DNA of 45,223 bases from a candidate division WOR-3 bacterium (GTDB lineage: Bacteria; Hydrothermota; Hydrothermia; Hydrothermales; JAJRUZ01): positions 1 to 45,223 of the forward strand of contig JBDRZP010000018.1 in assembly GCA_039804025.1 (NCBI GenBank), written 5' to 3'. The position numbers and the translations under genes are program-made. The notes beneath the pieces were generated by a model. The model was given only the letters and a program-made list of their open reading frames with translations, did no database searches and was not told where the DNA came from. This document shows positions 2,716 through 40,703 of this stretch, piece after piece (the first letter of the stretch is position 1; every line of letters begins with the position of its first letter).

Positions 2716-2761
2716 TTTAAATTCTCTTAGGTTATCAATTTTTTAGTAATAAAGGGAAGGG

Positions 2762-5793
<3,032 letters not shown>

Positions 5794-5801
<8 letters not shown>

Positions 5802-25947: not shown

Positions 25948-27156
25948 TTGTTCAAATTCGAATCAGCTACCTCTTTATCCCTTAAAACTGGCGGAATAAA
26001 TTTAATTCTCAAAAAAGCAAAAGGGGACCTTGTATGGGATAAAAATAATAAAAAATATTATGACTTTACATCCTTTTTTGGCGTTTCCCTCTTCGGACAC
26101 TTCAATCCCTTTATAATTAAAAAAGTTAAAGAATACTTTAAAATTAAACCTCACTCAATGGCGGATCTCTTTCCTTATGAAAAAAGAGAAAAATTATCAG
26201 AAGAAATTGTTAAATTTTTTAAAAACAAAGATTTGCTCTGCACCTTTGGAATATCAGGAACTGATGCTATTGAAATAGCAATTAAAACTGCCTTTTTATA
26301 TACTAAAAGAGAAAAAATAATTTCCTTCAAAAATTCATACCACGGTCTTTCAATGTTCAACCTCTCTATTACAAATATTTATCATTTTAAAAAACCCTTT
26401 GAAAAATTTTTAAAAAATTACTCAATAGAAATTAAATATCCTGAAAGAGAAGAGGATCTTGAAGATCTTGAAAGGAATTTAAAAAGTCTAAACCCAAAAG
26501 AAATAGCTGGAATTATTTTAGAACCGATACAGGGAAGAGGTGGAATAAAACTTCCCCCCAAAAATTTTATTAAAATTCTCTATGAATATGCTAAAGATAA
26601 TGATATTATATTAATAATTGATGAGGTTTTTACAGGTTTTGCAAGAACAGGTAAAGATTTCTGCTTTCAATATGAAATAGATTTCCCTGATATTTTGTGC
26701 CTCGGGAAAGCACTCGGAGGCGGATTCCCAATTTCTGCCTGTGTGGGGAAAAAAGAAATTATGAAAGTTTGGGAAATAAAAGGAGATCCCCTTTATGCAA
26801 CAACCTTTTTAACCCATCCTTTATCAATAATATCATCCCTTGCCTTTTTAGAACTTTATAAAAAAGAAAATCCTTTAAAAATAGTAAAGGAAAAGGAGAA
26901 AATTTTTAAAGAACTACTTAAAAAATTAGAAAATAAAAGGGAAATTAAGGAAATAAGGGGAAAAGGAATTTTATGGGGCATAGAATTTAAGGACGAAAAA
27001 CTATCTTTAAATTTATGGAAAAAATTAATAAAAAAAGGATTTTTAACCCTTCTTGAAGGTGAAAAACACAATGTTTTAACTTTTGTCCCTTCTTTATATT
27101 TTTCAGAAAAAAAACTAAAAAAAATTATAGATTTTTTAGATATTTCTCTCCATTAA
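25948..27156 (+). CDS. Class III PLP-dependent aminotransferase
   Basis: The protein has 402 residues. It has GISGTDAIEIAIKTA, SYHGLSM, EPIQGRGGI, IIDEVFTGFARTG (PLP-binding Asp) and CLGKALGGGFP with the Schiff-base Lys. These place it among acetylornithine, 4-aminobutyrate and related aminotransferases; the substrate cannot be told from sequence alone. The start is a TTG at 25948, only 14 bp after tRNA-Met, with no ribosome binding site; an alternative start is not seen. It converges with the ligase gene and overlaps it by 21 bp. Confidence 0.85.
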   Translation: MFKFESATSLSLKTGGINLILKKAKGDLVWDKNNKKYYDFTSFFGVSLFGHFNPFIIKKVKEYFKIKPHSMADLFPYEKREKLSEEIVKFFKNKDLLCTFGISGTDAIEIAIKTAFLYTKREKIISFKNSYHGLSMFNLSITNIYHFKKPFEKFLKNYSIEIKYPEREEDLEDLERNLKSLNPKEIAGIILEPIQGRGGIKLPPKNFIKILYEYAKDNDIILIIDEVFTGFARTGKDFCFQYEIDFPDILCLGKALGGGFPISACVGKKEIMKVWEIKGDPLYATTFLTHPLSIISSLAFLELYKKENPLKIVKEKEKIFKELLKKLENKREIKEIRGKGILWGIEFKDEKLSLNLWKKLIKKGFLTLLEGEKHNVLTFVPSLYFSEKKLKKIIDFLDISLH

Positions 27157-28659
27157 AAAAATTCTTCTTATCTCTTTTATATCTGCAATATCATGGGCAC
27201 TTTTATCAAATCTGAACCTTTTAACCCTTGCAAACCTTAAGGAAAATCCTGAATTATAAACCTTACTTTCAATTACCTCATCAAAGGCAACTTCAACTAC
27301 ATAAAAGGGTTTAACCTTAATCATCCATCCAAAATTTTTTTCTGTTAAAGGAGGAAGATTTTTAGTAAGGAAAATCAAATCTTCTTCTTTTAGACCTTTA
27401 AAAGTTTTACCAAGATCAAGAAAATTTTTTCTTTCCTCATCAAGACAGGAAAGATGAAGATTTGATAAAAATCCCTTTCTTTTACCATGACCCCATTCGG
27501 CACCTGTTATAACAAGGTCAAGAGTATAAAATTTTTTCCATTTAAACCAGTATTTTCCTCTTTTTCCATAGGTATAGGGGCTCACTGGATCCTTGATAAT
27601 TAAACCCTCATTCCCTTTTTCAATTGACTTTAAGAAAAAATTTTCTGCTTCATCCTTTTTATCAGTTATGATATAGGGCATTTTGATTTTTTCAGGAATT
27701 ATCTCCTCAAGAATTTTCTTTCTTTCCTTAAGGGGGTAATCAAGTAAAAACTCTCCATCCACATAAAGAATATCAAAAACAAAGGGAGAAATATTTTCAC
27801 TTTCAACATATTTTTTACCGAACTCCTTCATAAAATCCTGAAAAGGGATAGGGATTCCTTCCTCATTTAAAATAACTCCTTCAGCATCCAAAATAAAATC
27901 TCTTTTAAAGTTCTTAAAAAATTCTGTTAGATTTTTTAATTTAAATGTTATATCCTTTAAATTTCTTGAAAATATCTTTATTTTATCCTTTTCCTTATGA
28001 ATCTGGAGCCTTGCTCCATCAAGTTTGAATTCAAGTAAAAAATTTTTTCCCTTTTTGAAAAGTCTTAAAGGATCTTCTTCAATTTCTGCGAGCATAGGTG
28101 AAAGGGGCTCAAAAATTTTGGGTTTAAATTCTTTAAAAATTAAATTACCCTTTTCAAAAATTTCATAAACAAGTTCTAGGATATTTCCTCTTTTAAGTAA
28201 TTTTTCTCCTTCTTTAATATCAATTCCCTTTGCTTTTAAAAGAGCTTTAAAAATAATTTTTTCCTTTGCACCCTGCCTTACTTCTCCAATCAAATAATCA
28301 ACAAAAAATGCTCTTTCTTTTTCATTTAAGTTTTTGAAAAAATCTTTCAAAAGATAAAACCTTTGACTTAAAGAACCTTCCCCTTTAATAAAACTCAATT
28401 TTTTGATAAATTCCTCTATTTCCTTTAGTTCTATTTCCCTTACAGAAAAATCCTTTATTGAAGCTAAAACTTCCCTTAAGAGGGAGTAACCTACATTCAA
28501 TTTCCCATAAAGGGGGATTCCTGAGAGAAGGGAAAAAGAAATTTTAATTTCCTCTAAACTTAATTTTTTAAAAAAATCAGATAAAATAAATATTTTATCC
28601 TTTAAAGAACTTTTTTCCTTAACTTTTTCATAAATATGAATAATTTCTGAAAAATACAT
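27136..28659 (-). CDS. ATP-dependent DNA ligase, archaeal/replicative type
   Basis: The protein has 507 residues, the length of archaeal Lig1-type ligases. The order is an N-terminal DNA-binding helical domain (1-180, with GEVRQGAKEK), the adenylation domain with motif I EFKLDGARLQIHK (nucleotidyl Lys212), a glutamate motif (LDAEGVIL), and EGLIIKDPVSPYTYGKRG, then an OB-fold (FKWKK; WGHGKRKG). It seals DNA nicks using ATP. Most bacteria replicate with the NAD-dependent LigA; a full-length archaeal-type enzyme suggests transfer from archaea or a thermophile repair role. The context gives no partner such as Ku. Confidence 0.92.
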   Translation of the reverse strand: MYFSEIIHIYEKVKEKSSLKDKIFILSDFFKKLSLEEIKISFSLLSGIPLYGKLNVGYSLLREVLASIKDFSVREIELKEIEEFIKKLSFIKGEGSLSQRFYLLKDFFKNLNEKERAFFVDYLIGEVRQGAKEKIIFKALLKAKGIDIKEGEKLLKRGNILELVYEIFEKGNLIFKEFKPKIFEPLSPMLAEIEEDPLRLFKKGKNFLLEFKLDGARLQIHKEKDKIKIFSRNLKDITFKLKNLTEFFKNFKRDFILDAEGVILNEEGIPIPFQDFMKEFGKKYVESENISPFVFDILYVDGEFLLDYPLKERKKILEEIIPEKIKMPYIITDKKDEAENFFLKSIEKGNEGLIIKDPVSPYTYGKRGKYWFKWKKFYTLDLVITGAEWGHGKRKGFLSNLHLSCLDEERKNFLDLGKTFKGLKEEDLIFLTKNLPPLTEKNFGWMIKVKPFYVVEVAFDEVIESKVYNSGFSLRFARVKRFRFDKSAHDIADIKEIRRIFLMERNI

Positions 28660-35631: not shown

Positions 35632-36253
35632 GGCTCACCCCGATTCAAAACCAAAGGATGGAATTGTATCAAAACACATAAACAGATACTTCTCTTCACT
35701 TTTTACAAAAATAATTATTAAAAAAAATATACATCCAAATAAGATAACTCTTATATTTTTAATACTCTTTTCTTTTTTTCTTATTTTATCAGGAATTTTA
35801 AGAAGTATTCTTTTAACAGGTTTTTTCTATCAATTAGCTTCAATTTGTGATGGAATTGATGGAGAAATTGCAAGAAAGAAAAATCTTACTTCTGAAGGTG
35901 GAGCACTTCTTGATACTGTAAGTGACTACATAGTTGATTCAATTGCAGCTTTTTCACTTGGGTATTCTCTTTCAAAATACAATTTTAATAATTTTTTAAT
36001 TTTATTTATTACATCCTTTACAATAATGACAAGACTTTTAACTCAGTTTATTGTAAAAAATACAAAAGGTTTTAGAAGGCATATTATAAGAGACACAAGG
36101 GATTTAATTGTTTTTATTATCTTTATCTTTTCAATTTTAACAGAAATTTTCAAAAATCCTTATATAATGTTTTATGGATTAATTTTTATCAATGTATGGA
36201 GATGGGATAACGGTATTTACAGATTATACTGTTTTATTAAAAAAAATTCTTAA
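35618..36253 (+). CDS. CDP-alcohol phosphatidyltransferase, inositol-phosphate (DIPP synthase-like) type
   Basis: The protein has 211 residues and about five or six membrane segments. The full CDP-alcohol motif is present: D78, D81-G82-x2-A85-R86, G95, D99 and D103. The N-terminal PKDGIVSKHINRYFS and the RRHIIRDTRDLIVF segment resemble the transferase domain of di-myo-inositol-phosphate phosphate synthase, which makes a heat solute in thermophiles. The usual partner, a CTP:inositol-1-phosphate cytidylyltransferase domain, is absent; a P-loop kinase precedes it instead. Phospholipid synthesis is the alternative. Confidence 0.75.
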   Translation: MILFKAHPDSKPKDGIVSKHINRYFSSLFTKIIIKKNIHPNKITLIFLILFSFFLILSGILRSILLTGFFYQLASICDGIDGEIARKKNLTSEGGALLDTVSDYIVDSIAAFSLGYSLSKYNFNNFLILFITSFTIMTRLLTQFIVKNTKGFRRHIIRDTRDLIVFIIFIFSILTEIFKNPYIMFYGLIFINVWRWDNGIYRLYCFIKKNS

Positions 36254-36717
36254 AGTCTTTTAACCCAGATTTCTTTTGACTCACCTACTCTATAAAAATC
36301 CTTAATCTCTGCCTCTTTTTTAAAACCCATTTTCTCATAAAACCTTCTTGCCCTCTTATGCTTTTCCTGTGTTTCAAGAACTATCATTCTTATTTTTCTT
36401 CTATTAACTTCATTTAAAAATTCTTGAAATAAAATCTCTGCTATCCCCTGACCGTAAAAATTAGGGTCAACCACAATCCATAAAAGCTCCATTACAGAAT
36501 CAGCAAGAAAATTCTCTGAAAAAAGAATAAATCCAAGTAAATTACCATTTTCAAAAATACCTATCCCCTCGTATTCTCCCCTTTCAATTCCATCAAAAAC
36601 ATATAAACAGGTCTTTTTGTCCTTTTCATTAAAATCAGGAGTTCTATTTAATATATCAATAAAAGAAGACCTTACCTCCTTTGAGAGTTTTGTTACTTTT
36701 AATTCAAGAGTTTTCAT
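36250..36717 (-). CDS. GNAT-family N-acetyltransferase
   Basis: The protein has 155 residues. It has the GNAT core: EGIGIFENGNLLGFIL (strands), LLWIVVDPNFYGQGIAEILFQEF (acetyl-CoA loop QGIA), MIVLETQEKHKRARRFYEKMGFKKEA (motif B). It is shorter than AblB, the beta-lysine acetyltransferase. It overlaps the ATP-grasp gene by 4 bp and is the last gene of the kamA cluster, so a product amine of that pathway is the likely substrate. Confidence 0.82.
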   Translation of the reverse strand: MKTLELKVTKLSKEVRSSFIDILNRTPDFNEKDKKTCLYVFDGIERGEYEGIGIFENGNLLGFILFSENFLADSVMELLWIVVDPNFYGQGIAEILFQEFLNEVNRRKIRMIVLETQEKHKRARRFYEKMGFKKEAEIKDFYRVGESKEIWVKRL

Positions 36718-37688
36718 AATTTTCTTCTCTCACAAGCTCTTTCTATCAATCTCTCTATAAAATGAGAATATGAAATTCCTCTAAATTCAAGGGCTTTATA
36801 AAAGCCAGAATCCCTTGAAATATCAGGATTGGGATTTGCTTCAATAAAAAAAATTTCGCCTTTAAAATCCATTCTTAAGTCTATCCTACCGTAATCCCTC
36901 ATTTCAAGTATATTAAAAATTTTTAAGGATATATTTTCAATCTCCTTTTCCTTTTTTTTATCAAGTTCAGCTGGGTAAATAACAGGTGTTAAAACATAAT
37001 CTTCGCTATTTTTATCCCATTTTGAACTATAGGTTAAAATTCTTGGTTCTGTTTTAAAGATTACTTCACCTATTCCTATTACCCTATCATCAAAAATTGA
37101 AACATTAAATTCTCTTCCATCAATATATTCTTCAGCAAAAAAAGGAACATTGTATTTTTCGAGTTCTCTAATCCTTCTTTTATAATCTTTTTCATTAAAA
37201 ATTACATTTTTCTTTTCAATAAAGAGGCTTGAATCACTTTTTCTTGGTTTTAAAATAAGAGGGAAAAAAATTTTATCCTCCTCACCTATTACAAAAAATT
37301 TAGGAGTTTTAATTCCATAATGGCTTACTAAAATTTTTGCTTTAACCTTATCAAGACATAAAGAAAAGGATTCAGGAGGGGAACCGGTATAAGGAATTTC
37401 AAGGGTTTCAAGAATACCTGCTACCCAGCTTTCACCTTCGGGTTTTCCTTCAAAATCTTCACACAAATTAATAACAACATCAAAACCTTTCTTTTTTAAA
37501 ATATCTATCCACTCAAGTTTTCTATCAACAGGTAATAAAAAAACTTCGCAGGAAAGGTTTAAAAGTGTATCTTTAACAAGATTAACCTCATCCATAACAG
37601 AAGCTCTATCAGGTAAATCTGATTCCTTGGGTTCGTTGTAAAGAATGCAGATTTTTTTATTTTTTAATTCCATATCTTTCAAAGGCAC
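36714..37688 (-). CDS. D-Ala-D-Ala-ligase-like ATP-grasp protein 2
   Basis: The protein has 324 residues. The N-terminal part has VINLCEDFEGKPEGESWVAG and LEIPYTGSPPESFSLCLDK, as in Ddl. The ATP-grasp part shows LILKPRKSDSS, FAEEYIDGREFNVSIFDD and RIDLRMDFKGEIFFIEANPNPDIS, holding the metal-binding Asp, Glu and Asn. It differs from true Ddl at the substrate end (NPNPDIS). It overlaps its upstream paralogue by 32 bp and GNAT by 4 bp. It probably forms an amide or peptide bond to an amino acid. Confidence 0.78.
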   Translation of the reverse strand: MPLKDMELKNKKICILYNEPKESDLPDRASVMDEVNLVKDTLLNLSCEVFLLPVDRKLEWIDILKKKGFDVVINLCEDFEGKPEGESWVAGILETLEIPYTGSPPESFSLCLDKVKAKILVSHYGIKTPKFFVIGEEDKIFFPLILKPRKSDSSLFIEKKNVIFNEKDYKRRIRELEKYNVPFFAEEYIDGREFNVSIFDDRVIGIGEVIFKTEPRILTYSSKWDKNSEDYVLTPVIYPAELDKKKEKEIENISLKIFNILEMRDYGRIDLRMDFKGEIFFIEANPNPDISRDSGFYKALEFRGISYSHFIERLIERACERRKL

Positions 37689-38649
37689 TCTCTAAAATCT
37701 TTTCTATGATTTCTCTATAACTTAAACCCATTTTATAAGCCATAATCGGAAAATCACTTGTTTCAGGGTTAAGACCAGGAAGTGGATTTATTTCAAGAAA
37801 ATAAGGGTTAAAATTTTCGTCAAACCTGAAATCAAATCTTGAAAAATCTTTTAAATCAAGGGCTTTAAAAAGTTTTAAAACATACCTTTTTATTTCCCTT
37901 TTCTTTTCTTCAGGTATTTCAGGTGGAACAATATATTCAACCTCCTCCTTATAATTTCTCTTAACTTCAAGGGAATAGAGAAAATCTTCTTCCTTTAATC
38001 TTTTTGGTCTTATCTCCATCAATCCAAAGAATTTAATTTTTTCATTTCCAATTATACCTACGGTTACTTCTTTTCCGGGCACAAATTTTTCAACAAGCAC
38101 AGGCTCTCTGTATTTTTCAAGAAGTTCTTTTGCTTTTTCTTTTAATTCATCGAGACTATTTACCTTTGAGGAAAGTCTTAATCCTATGCTTGAACCCTCA
38201 TTTTTTAATTTCAAAACACAGGGAAAATCTTTAAATTTAAAATTTTTAAGTTCCTTTAAACTTTTAATAACCTTAAAACTCGGTGTTCTCACACCAATGG
38301 ATTTAGCAAATCTCTTACATAACTCTTTATCTAAGGTAATACTTAAAGCAAGGGGGTCAGAACCTGAATAAGGGATATTGAGCATTTCACATACTGATGG
38401 AACATGTCCTTCCCTTGATCTTGTTCCAAACCCCTCAGCAATATTAAAGATAAAATCAACCTTTTCCTTTAAAATTTTCTCTATAAAATCTTTTCCACTA
38501 CCCAAAAGTATAGTTTCAAAACCAAAACTTTCTATCGTTTTTTTTAGAGAATTAACAGTTATTTCTGAATCAAACTCCTCAAATATATCCTCGGGCAAAT
38601 GAGGAGGCACTTCTTTAGGTTTTAAATCATAGGTTATTCCAATTTTCAT
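37657..38649 (-). CDS. D-Ala-D-Ala-ligase-like ATP-grasp protein 1
   Basis: The protein has 330 residues. Marks are FIFNIAEGFGTRSREGHVPS, LNIPYSGSDPLALSITLDK, LKLKNEGSSIGL (loop over substrate), VEKFVPGKEVTVGIIGN and FDFRFDENFNPYFLEINPLPGL. The metal ligands of the ATP-grasp fold are in place. It lies 46 bp after kamA and overlaps the second ligase by 32 bp. A true cell-wall D-Ala-D-Ala ligase would be single and near mur genes; a tandem pair beside kamA suggests a different amino-acid ligase. Confidence 0.78.
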   Translation of the reverse strand: MKIGITYDLKPKEVPPHLPEDIFEEFDSEITVNSLKKTIESFGFETILLGSGKDFIEKILKEKVDFIFNIAEGFGTRSREGHVPSVCEMLNIPYSGSDPLALSITLDKELCKRFAKSIGVRTPSFKVIKSLKELKNFKFKDFPCVLKLKNEGSSIGLRLSSKVNSLDELKEKAKELLEKYREPVLVEKFVPGKEVTVGIIGNEKIKFFGLMEIRPKRLKEEDFLYSLEVKRNYKEEVEYIVPPEIPEEKKREIKRYVLKLFKALDLKDFSRFDFRFDENFNPYFLEINPLPGLNPETSDFPIMAYKMGLSYREIIEKILESAFERYGIKK

Positions 38650-38695
38650 AGAAAAATTTTAATTTAATTTTTAAATAAATTAATTTTTAATTAAA

Positions 38696-40021
38696 CTATT
38701 TTCTGATTCTTCTTCTTTCCATTCGATAAGTTTTTTCAGGAATTAAGTATTCCTTTTCACCCTTTAAAAGACCAAAGATACCTTCTTTATTTATACCTTT
38801 TTGCCTTCCTTCTCTTTCAGAACCATTCCAGGTATAGGATATTATCATTCCTTCATAGTTTCTGAGAACAATCCTATCCTCTGACATTGAGATAACATAG
38901 TTTGGCATAACAGGAATTTTACCACCTCCATGGGGCGCATCAACAACATAAGTGGGAATAGCAAGTCCTGAAATATGCCCCCTTAAACCTTCAATTATCT
39001 CTATTCCCTTATAAACAGATGTTCTGAAGTGGGAAACTCCTTTTGTAGGGTCACAGTGGAATAAATAATAGGGTCTTACCTTTATCCTTAAAAGAGCTTT
39101 TAAAAGTTCTCTCATTGTCTCCACATTATCATTTATTCCCTTTAATAAAACAGACTGGTTATTAACAGGTATTCCACACTTTAATAAATTTAAAACTGCC
39201 TTTTTAGAAAGTTCGGTTATTTCCTTTGGATGGTTAAAGTGGGTATTCAACCATAGAAAATCATACTGGGATAAAAGATTTAATAGCTCTTGATCAAACA
39301 GTCTCATAGGAAGAGTCACAGGAACTCTTGAACCAAGTCTTACTACCTGGATAGAAGGAATAGTTTTTAGTCCGTCAAGTATAAATTTAAGTTTCAGAAT
39401 TGGCAGGGTTAGAGGATCTCCACCTGAAAGAATTATATCATTTATTTCAGGGTGTTCTCTTAAATAGTTCAAAACCTTATCAAATTCCTGATAAACTTTA
39501 ACAGTTCCGCCTTTACCGAGCAATCTTTTTCTTGTGCAGTGCCTGCAGTAAGTTGTGCAGAAATTTGTTGTAATAAGTAAAGCTCTATCAGGATATCTGT
39601 GAATTAAACCAGGGGCAGCTTCATCCTCCTCCTCTTCAAGAGGGTCTCTTACCCCTTTATAATCATGTAATTCATCAATACTTGGAATTGCCTGTTTCCT
39701 TATAGGGTCATCAGGATTTTCAGGATCAATAAGTGAAAGATAATAGGGAGAAATTAATATTGGAAATTTTCTCGCAACAAGTCTTATATCTCTCTTTTCT
39801 TTTTCAGTTAAAAAAGGAAAAGCTTCAAATAATTGTTCAGGAGTCCTAATTAAATTTCTTATTTGCCATTTATAGTCATAGAAAATTTCAGGTGGAACAT
39901 CTTGATAGAGGGGCAATTTTTGCCAGAAGTATTTTTCTTCCTTTTTGAGAAGGACAGGCGAGGGGGGAGGTTCATCCCCCCTTAAGGTATCCTTGTTTTT
40001 ATCTTCTTTTATTATTTCCAT
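38696..40021 (-). CDS. kamA: Lysine 2,3-aminomutase, radical SAM, PLP-dependent
   Basis: The protein has 441 residues. The radical SAM site is C155, C159 and C162 (TNFCTTYCRHC). D324 (FHCDPTKGVSHF) and D361 (YVVDAPHGGGKIPVMPNY) match the two Asp that bind the lysine amino group in the clostridial enzyme; in glutamate 2,3-aminomutases these are Lys and Asn. K368 is the PLP lysine. The product would be L-beta-lysine. It heads a four-gene unit with two ATP-grasp ligases and a GNAT. Confidence 0.92.
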   Translation of the reverse strand: MEIIKEDKNKDTLRGDEPPPSPVLLKKEEKYFWQKLPLYQDVPPEIFYDYKWQIRNLIRTPEQLFEAFPFLTEKEKRDIRLVARKFPILISPYYLSLIDPENPDDPIRKQAIPSIDELHDYKGVRDPLEEEEDEAAPGLIHRYPDRALLITTNFCTTYCRHCTRKRLLGKGGTVKVYQEFDKVLNYLREHPEINDIILSGGDPLTLPILKLKFILDGLKTIPSIQVVRLGSRVPVTLPMRLFDQELLNLLSQYDFLWLNTHFNHPKEITELSKKAVLNLLKCGIPVNNQSVLLKGINDNVETMRELLKALLRIKVRPYYLFHCDPTKGVSHFRTSVYKGIEIIEGLRGHISGLAIPTYVVDAPHGGGKIPVMPNYVISMSEDRIVLRNYEGMIISYTWNGSEREGRQKGINKEGIFGLLKGEKEYLIPEKTYRMERRRIRK

Positions 40022-40071
40022 TTTTTATCCCTTTAAAGTTTTATTTTACTTAACAAAATTTTCAGTTAATA

Positions 40072-40100
40072 ATAATAAATTAAAAAAAACAATTTGTCAA
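40072..40100 (-). promoter_or_regulatory. Promoter of the kamA cluster
   Basis: The minus strand has TTGACA (40100-40095), a 17-bp spacer and TATTAT (40077-40072). Just upstream, TGGAAAACTTTTTCA (40108-40122) is an imperfect palindrome with 7-bp arms between kamA and the divergent XRE-cupin gene, a possible operator for that regulator. Confidence 0.65.
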
Positions 40101-40142
40101 GAGTTTGTGGAAAACTTTTTCAAAAATAAATTAAAATTCAAT

Positions 40143-40703
40143 ATGTCCTTTGAAAGGGAAATAGGTGAAAAAATAAGAAAAATAAGAAAAAGTGAGGGTT
40201 TAACTTTAAAGGAACTTTCCCTGAGATCAGGTGTAACAAAGTCAGCCCTTTCCCAGATTGAGAGGGGTAAAATAACTCCCTCAATTTCAACTTTTAAATC
40301 AATTCTTGATGCCCTTGGTCTTTCCTTCTCTGAATTTTTTGAAAAAGAGGAAAAGGGAGTATTTTTTAAATTTGGAAAGTTTGATTATAAATTTATTGAG
40401 AAGGAAAATATAAATCTTACCCTTTTAACGCCTTTCGGGGGTAACAAATCCTTTGACATTTTAAAAGTTGAGATTCCTCCCTTTACATCAACAAGGGTAG
40501 AATCACCGCATCAAGGAGAAGAGGGTGGTTTTGTTCTAAAGGGAGCTGTTTATTTTCAGTTTGGAAAAAAGAAAATTAAAGTGGAAAGGGGTGAAAGTTA
40601 TTTTTTTTATCCTGATAAAATTCATTTTTTTGAAAACAGATCAAAAAACAAATCCGCTATCATAATACACATAGTTTCACCTCCGAATATTGACATATTT
40701 TAA
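40143..40703 (+). CDS. XRE-family regulator with C-terminal cupin domain
   Basis: The ATG at 40143 gives 186 residues; the frame extends further upstream but the protein begins naturally at MSFEREIGEKIRKIRKSEG. The HTH is LTLKELSLRSGVTKSALSQIERGK, and the cupin (about 100-178) has FTSTRVESPHQGEEGGFVLKG and VERGESYFFYPDKIHFFEN. XRE-cupin proteins commonly sense small metabolites and control their synthesis or use. It is divergent from kamA, with both starts within 125 bp, so it probably regulates the kamA cluster. Confidence 0.85.
   Translation: MSFEREIGEKIRKIRKSEGLTLKELSLRSGVTKSALSQIERGKITPSISTFKSILDALGLSFSEFFEKEEKGVFFKFGKFDYKFIEKENINLTLLTPFGGNKSFDILKVEIPPFTSTRVESPHQGEEGGFVLKGAVYFQFGKKKIKVERGESYFFYPDKIHFFENRSKNKSAIIIHIVSPPNIDIF

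Follow-up and report, generated by a model that had tools for sequence, protein, structure and literature searches.

A lysine 2,3-aminomutase clustered with two Ddl-fold ATP-grasp ligases and a GNAT: a candidate beta-lysine amide or peptide pathway in bacteria and archaea

What would a cell gain by encoding a lysine 2,3-aminomutase (LAM) together with two paralogous peptide-ligase-like enzymes and an acyltransferase? The question is raised by a 45,223-nucleotide stretch of DNA (the window; contig JBDRZP010000018.1 of assembly GCA_039804025.1, contig C18 in our numbering) from a candidate division WOR-3 bacterium, whose genome (G000) comprises 2.12 Mb in 47 contigs. The original prediction had placed here a four-gene unit facing a divergent regulator, and all five genes were recovered at the positions it gave, the four of the unit on the minus strand. 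The first gene of the unit codes for KamA, a radical S-adenosylmethionine (SAM)/pyridoxal phosphate (PLP) L-lysine 2,3-aminomutase (38696..40021, 441 aa); it is followed by LIG1 (37657..38649, 330 aa) and LIG2 (36714..37688, 324 aa from a GTG start, with a further in-frame ATG at 37673), both ATP-grasp ligases with the fold of D-Ala-D-Ala ligase (Ddl), and by a GNAT acyltransferase (36250..36717, 155 aa; PF00583, 9.2e-16). The opposing gene codes for an XRE-cupin regulator (40146..40703, plus strand, 185 aa). We propose that KamA, LIG1, LIG2, and GNAT probably constitute a dedicated pathway for a beta-lysine amide or peptide, a reading built on genomic context, conserved residues, and phylogeny.

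Recurrence of the four-gene unit

The genes of the unit are closely packed: KamA and LIG1 are separated by 46 bp, whereas LIG1 and LIG2 overlap by up to 32 bp and LIG2 and GNAT by 4 bp (ATGA), and the overlapping junctions resemble those of a translationally coupled operon. A profile scan of genome contigs with LIG2 recovered at least 554 encoded relatives, whose best 80 loci were analyzed. At 74 of these 80 KamA lies in the fetched stretch, 55 have all four genes, 51 show the contiguous order LIG1-LIG2-GNAT-KamA (median gaps of -1, -23, and 20 bp), and 17 are devoid of a detected GNAT. The taxa carrying the recurrent set include Ignavibacteria, Dadabacteria (with the window's own order, KamA-LIG1-LIG2-GNAT), Syntrophaceae, Planctomycetota, and archaea, with Stygiobacter electus as a named strain among the hosts. 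Closer to the window, two genomes of the same genus (G001, G002) retain all five genes in the same order, and two distant genomes of its phylum (G048, G057) have the order LIG1-LIG2-GNAT-KamA. The association, which recurs with identical or rearranged gene order in other families, other phyla, and archaea, is far beyond chance. In one archaeal phylum, 15 of 250 sampled genomes are positive, mostly with KamA-LIG1 convergent with LIG2; a third type of GNAT adjoins KamA or LIG2 in the archaeal loci, and acylation therefore seems to be part of the pathway. Gene fusions add a further layer of linkage: in a metagenome-assembled genome of the Methanomethylophilaceae (locus L119), KamA and LIG1 form a single protein of 770 aa and LIG2 shares a 517-aa protein with a GNAT from another Pfam subfamily, while at L225 LIG2 and GNAT make up one 500-aa open reading frame (ORF). 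These fusions suggest an order of action from KamA to LIG1 and from LIG2 to GNAT.

The link between the ligases and KamA also holds at the level of whole genomes. In the phylum of genome G061, 49 of 297 sampled genomes have LIG matches (E<1e-85), and KamA is present in 47 of these 49 versus 131 of the 248 others (Fisher test, 7e-10); in the window's phylum the corresponding figures are 6/6 and 31/141 (2e-4), both tests ignoring the relatedness of the genomes. Where LIG1-LIG2 is unlinked from KamA (15 genomes), KamA is encoded elsewhere in 15 of 15. Thus, the conserved neighborhood, the fusions, and the co-occurrence with KamA uphold the earlier view of the four genes as one functional unit, which persists in congeners and well beyond them. 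In most of the loci read, we also observed a small MerR-like HTH gene directly before the unlinked KamA (L259-L264 and L267-L268).

Of 147 genomes in the window's phylum, only six have a LIG2 of this kind (E<1e-100), with KamA adjoining in all six. In phylogenetic trees the window's LIG1, LIG2, and KamA are each sister to their Dadabacteria counterparts, and the cassette therefore appears to move as a unit. The versions from G048 and G057 are placed elsewhere, those of LIG1 and KamA with Ignavibacteria-type cassettes; given the few positive genomes, the cassette was probably gained by transfer more than once within this phylum.

Several neighbors of the cassette were considered and set aside. 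The Syntrophaceae-type order is LIG1, a PAS histidine kinase, an NtrC-type regulator, a receiver protein, KamA, and LIG2, the two-component system beside LIG1 being lineage-specific. Apparent housekeeping neighbors, as judged from the starts of their sequences, are a RecG-like gene (725 aa) that lies upstream of LIG1 in Ignavibacteria and the rlmI/aspS-like genes found downstream of the Syntrophaceae cassettes; a 24,479-codon ORF around the LIG genes of G436 is a run of N. Separately, Ignavibacteria have lone LIG2-like genes (L128:7890-8945, L130:5221-6288) with KamA not nearby; upstream of both lies the same divergent gene for a C39-type cysteine-peptidase-like protein of ~277 aa, CGPFALKYALVMLGI.

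Active sites of the aminomutase and the ligases

The earlier statement that KamA has all its substrate residues is borne out by its alignment to the Clostridium subterminale LAM (2a5h; E=9.5e-129), in which R134, D293, D330, and the PLP-binding Lys337 are retained. Across 13 diverse operon KamAs the lysine-binding D324/D361 (equivalent to D293/D330), R164, and K368 are invariant, as is the radical SAM CxxxCxxC cluster. Among curated models TIGR03820 (AblA) outscores those for EpmB and the glutamate and arginine aminomutases; its score of 468.8 bits is below the cut-off of 525.4, and the window protein is therefore to be regarded as a KamA-family LAM and not as a curated AblA equivalog. In the tree it clusters with the C. 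subterminale LAM and with an AblA linked to AblB; two KamA-like proteins of the same phylum fall outside this group. Together with the conserved neighborhood and the KamA co-occurrence, these LAM residues point, as predicted, to beta-lysine as the likely building block.

Beta-lysine is also used to modify a protein: EpmB, a member of the KamA family, supplies it for elongation factor P (EF-P) in other bacteria (PMC2821294). Such beta-lysylation of EF-P or another protein could account for an aminomutase, but the window's KamA fits AblA far better than EpmB (TIGR03821, 236.3 bits against a cut-off of 369.3), the ligases are of the Ddl type instead of the EpmA/LysRS type, and the EF-P pathway requires no GNAT. 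Judged from the cassette genes, we consider this explanation highly improbable.

The ligases themselves present the more obvious alternative, namely that they are ordinary or additional D-Ala-D-Ala (or D-Ala-X) ligases of the cell wall. They share fold and family with Ddl: both match PF07478 (LIG1, 5.6e-38; LIG2, 2.4e-27), and their predicted models (pLDDT of 93.6 and 91.2, respectively) have Ddl crystal structures as nearest neighbors, with a TM-score of about 0.8. The residues of the ATP/Mg site (K119, K163, E199, K239, R279, D281, E294, N296) are retained at >=93% in LIG1 and LIG2. However, both fall under every curated Ddl cut-off (243 bits for NF002378 and 245.65 for TIGR01205), with LIG1 scoring 180.6 and 168.7 and LIG2 149.5 and 122.1 bits, respectively, E-values and cut-offs not being measures of specificity. 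In the tree a branch sets off each of LIG1, LIG2, and Ddl from the rest (support 94, 97, and 100, respectively), and the two ligases are separate from the Ddl of the same genomes; the host's own Ddl (L053:5511-6479) groups among the true Ddl. The LIG2 clade is further marked by an NPNPD motif.

It is on the substrate side that the departure from Ddl is most pronounced. The Ddl-invariant GGxS..E..VS..SG is lost in both families, and the substrate residues tested (E15, H63, Y216, and G276/S281 of Escherichia coli), whose roles we take from DdlB, are not kept; residues of the second-substrate loop are lost as well. Ddl His85 (His63 of DdlB by alignment) is Glu in 100% of LIG1 and LIG2; Ddl Tyr240 (Tyr216) has become Trp throughout LIG2, and in LIG1 it is Trp in 69% and Arg in 23%; and Ddl Gly276, which lies next to the carboxylate of the second substrate, is replaced by Asp in 85% of LIG2. 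Substrate pockets with such acidic residues would be suited to basic substrates. These losses, the presence of LIG1 and LIG2 in archaea, and their co-occurrence with KamA support the view that neither serves the cell as its D-Ala-D-Ala ligase, and make a cell-wall role a very remote prospect. At the level of sequence, then, neither of the two outcomes that the original prediction named as refuting is seen: the ligases do not look like mere D-Ala-D-Ala ligases, and the four genes do occur together in related genomes. As an independent observation, fusions of a SAM methyltransferase with a Ddl-type ATP-grasp domain (~645 aa; L050:5473-7410 of G042, L052, L054, L145-L155) occur in ~11 genomes of the window's phylum and form their own clade near LIG2.

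Acylation, polyamine genes, and regulation

In the known osmolyte pathway, KamA (AblA) and a GNAT (AblB) produce N-epsilon-acetyl-beta-lysine, and the KamA and GNAT of our cassette could be a variant pair doing the same job with the ligases as accessory or unrelated genes. The placement of KamA in the LAM/AblA clade and the GNAT gene adjoining it in most loci are in keeping with this. Against it, the window's GNAT is neither AblB nor RimI by curated cut-offs, and AblB (TIGR03827) is missing from 19 of the 20 cassette genomes checked, G000 included. Furthermore, G586 and the genome of L119 contain AblB with its own KamA as well as a LIG cassette with another KamA, which implies two distinct pathways, and LIG1, LIG2, and KamA are more constant than the GNAT in the loci analyzed. 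A variant osmolyte pathway is thus unlikely. AblB was present in 9 of 297 genomes in the sample of the G061 phylum; that AblB and the LIG cassette exclude each other was not supported, one genome having both (Fisher p=1.0).

A different context is seen in the 15 genomes with unlinked ligases: in 13 of them LIG1 lies directly downstream of a pyruvoyl arginine decarboxylase gene, and in the other two the contigs end there. Agmatinase is usual in these clusters and a deoxyhypusine/homospermidine-synthase-like gene frequent, hinting at a polyamine-related partner or purpose. In a special form of the proposed beta-lysine pathway, one ligase would attach putrescine, agmatine, or (homo)spermidine to beta-lysine or an amino acid. 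The result would be a cation resembling a polyamine, by analogy with the reaction of glutathionylspermidine synthetase, itself an ATP-grasp enzyme. The PuuR-like regulator of the window, relatives of which adjoin arginine decarboxylase at L270 and L271, and the Asp of LIG2 at the Ddl Gly276 position are consistent with such a conjugate. On the other hand, neither in the window nor in Ignavibacteria does the cassette adjoin polyamine genes, and no pyruvoyl arginine decarboxylase was detected in 5 of 23 cassette genomes; on balance the polyamine conjugate is conceivable but doubtful. The mere presence of arginine decarboxylase was rejected as a co-occurrence signal, leaving only the direct linkage. 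Among the linked clusters, a RimK-like ATP-grasp gene at L228:6634-7557 lies between arginine decarboxylase and LIG1 and is a possible third ligase. In those without a GNAT (L229, L239-L246), a conserved SAM-methyltransferase-like ORF directly follows LIG2 and might replace the acylation step.

The XRE-cupin regulator (HTH_3, 1.5e-16; Cupin_2, 3.7e-11) adjoins KamA in the window's genus and order, and in another phylum three genomes (L256-L258) have homologs with 29-33% identity immediately upstream of KamA, which agrees with the earlier assignment of the regulator to the pathway. Its start is ATG 40146, since its relatives begin with MSFEKE or MNFEKE; a longer ORF from TTG 39945 found no support in them. 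A TTGACA-17-TATTAT element on the minus strand (40072..40100), a candidate sigma-70-type promoter with 11 of 12 consensus matches, could serve KamA, and its TTGACA is conserved in 4 of 4 aligned genomes of the order; promoter-like matches in the region overall are no more frequent than in shuffles. Over the -10 region and transcript start lies an imperfect inverted repeat (40040..40079), a candidate operator with 15-nt arms that are 80% complementary and a 10-nt spacer. Its arm GTTAAGTAAA is kept in an alignment of four genomes, the candidate being weak because the region is AT-rich. No riboswitch was found at the cassettes examined.

Downstream of the cassette lie purE/purC and, on the opposite strand, a CDP-alcohol phosphotransferase gene; these flanking genes recur in congeners, and the neighborhood is therefore stable in the genus. 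Elsewhere in the window there is a complete 23S rRNA gene (2761-5801), possibly an unlinked rRNA gene, with no 16S rRNA match in the window; an ORF for a 507-aa ATP-dependent DNA ligase-like protein of a kind commoner in archaea, judged from sequence (27136-28659); and a CRISPR direct repeat (RF01315; 45169-45198) at the extreme end of the contig.

The proposed pathway among known systems

In the beta-lysine pathway that we propose, KamA would convert L-lysine to L-beta-lysine, LIG1 and LIG2 would form amide bonds with beta-lysine in ADP-forming reactions, probably with LIG1 acting first and LIG2 second, and the GNAT would then acylate, most likely acetylate, one of the product's amines. The likely outcome would be an N-acylated amide or short peptide of beta-lysine, whose ligation partner or partners may be a second beta-lysine unit, a different amino acid, or, in view of the arginine decarboxylase/agmatinase link, a polyamine; the XRE-cupin protein would be a probable repressor of the operon sensing a basic metabolite. 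The conserved unit, the family and residues of KamA, and the ligase fold with its intact ATP site and altered substrate residues are directly apparent, as is the distinctness of the cassette from Ddl and from AblA/AblB; what LIG1, LIG2, and GNAT catalyze and in which sequence, the product, and the regulation we infer from these.

Some observations weigh against this proposal. Besides the sub-threshold AblA score of KamA and the disregard of relatedness in the co-occurrence tests, a genome of the host's own order (G004) has the XRE, KamA, LIG1, and LIG2 genes with GNAT absent, its KamA being split by a frameshift into two ORFs in different frames (L047:10077-12491) and a 356-aa ORF with no Pfam match being inserted before LIG1. 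The GNAT is likewise absent beside the Syntrophaceae cassettes, and nearly all cassette hosts are metagenome-assembled. Further, the arginine decarboxylase linkage is confined to one phylum, and the mere presence of that enzyme is uninformative because it is found in 109 of 147 genomes of the window's phylum.

As to function, the original prediction had suggested a heat or salt solute, for which we found no support: the host records list groundwater, fen soil, and lakes with fresh water as well as hot springs, and a salt or heat function is therefore not their common denominator. More speculatively, and with less likelihood, the cassette could make a new class of N-acylated amides in bacteria and archaea, in which two sister ligases would join beta-lysine to a second amine such as a polyamine or a further basic amino acid, with the product serving, under a dedicated regulator, as a polyamine-like cation or cytoplasmic protectant. 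No open-access paper was found to describe an aminomutase clustered in this way with ATP-grasp ligases, subscription journals being outside the search, and the pathway appears to be undescribed. That it is kept by many uncultivated anaerobes and archaea, and by some in culture, implies an overlooked metabolite and provides KamA with an outlet besides the AblB osmolyte; it also draws attention to two ancient Ddl-fold ligase families easily misnamed D-Ala-D-Ala ligases by sequence searches.

Among known systems, the Ddl/Van ligases share with LIG1 and LIG2 the fold, the ATP/Mg site, and ADP-forming amide chemistry; however, LIG1 and LIG2 occur in tandem in a KamA operon, have lost the substrate-recognition residues, and coexist with a true Ddl encoded elsewhere. 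The AblA/AblB pathway likewise has beta-lysine made by KamA and a GNAT gene nearby, but the cassette adds two ATP-grasp ligases and its GNAT is not AblB. PuuR and other XRE-cupin regulators show the same HTH_3 and Cupin_2 architecture and a connection to small-amine metabolism, whereas the window's regulator is under the PuuR cut-off (85.5 bits versus 211) and by its position would control a biosynthetic KamA operon. A further parallel is the N-acetylglutaminylglutamine amide pathway, invoked by the original prediction and an analogy only, in which a GNAT is combined with, and even fused to, an ATP-grasp ligase. That pathway differs from the cassette in its amidotransferase, no amidotransferase/asparagine-synthase-like gene of this type having been found beside the window cassette, which instead has two Ddl-type ligases and, as its likely building block, beta-lysine in place of glutamine. 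LIG2-GNAT fusions exist here too, but with a ligase of the Ddl type.

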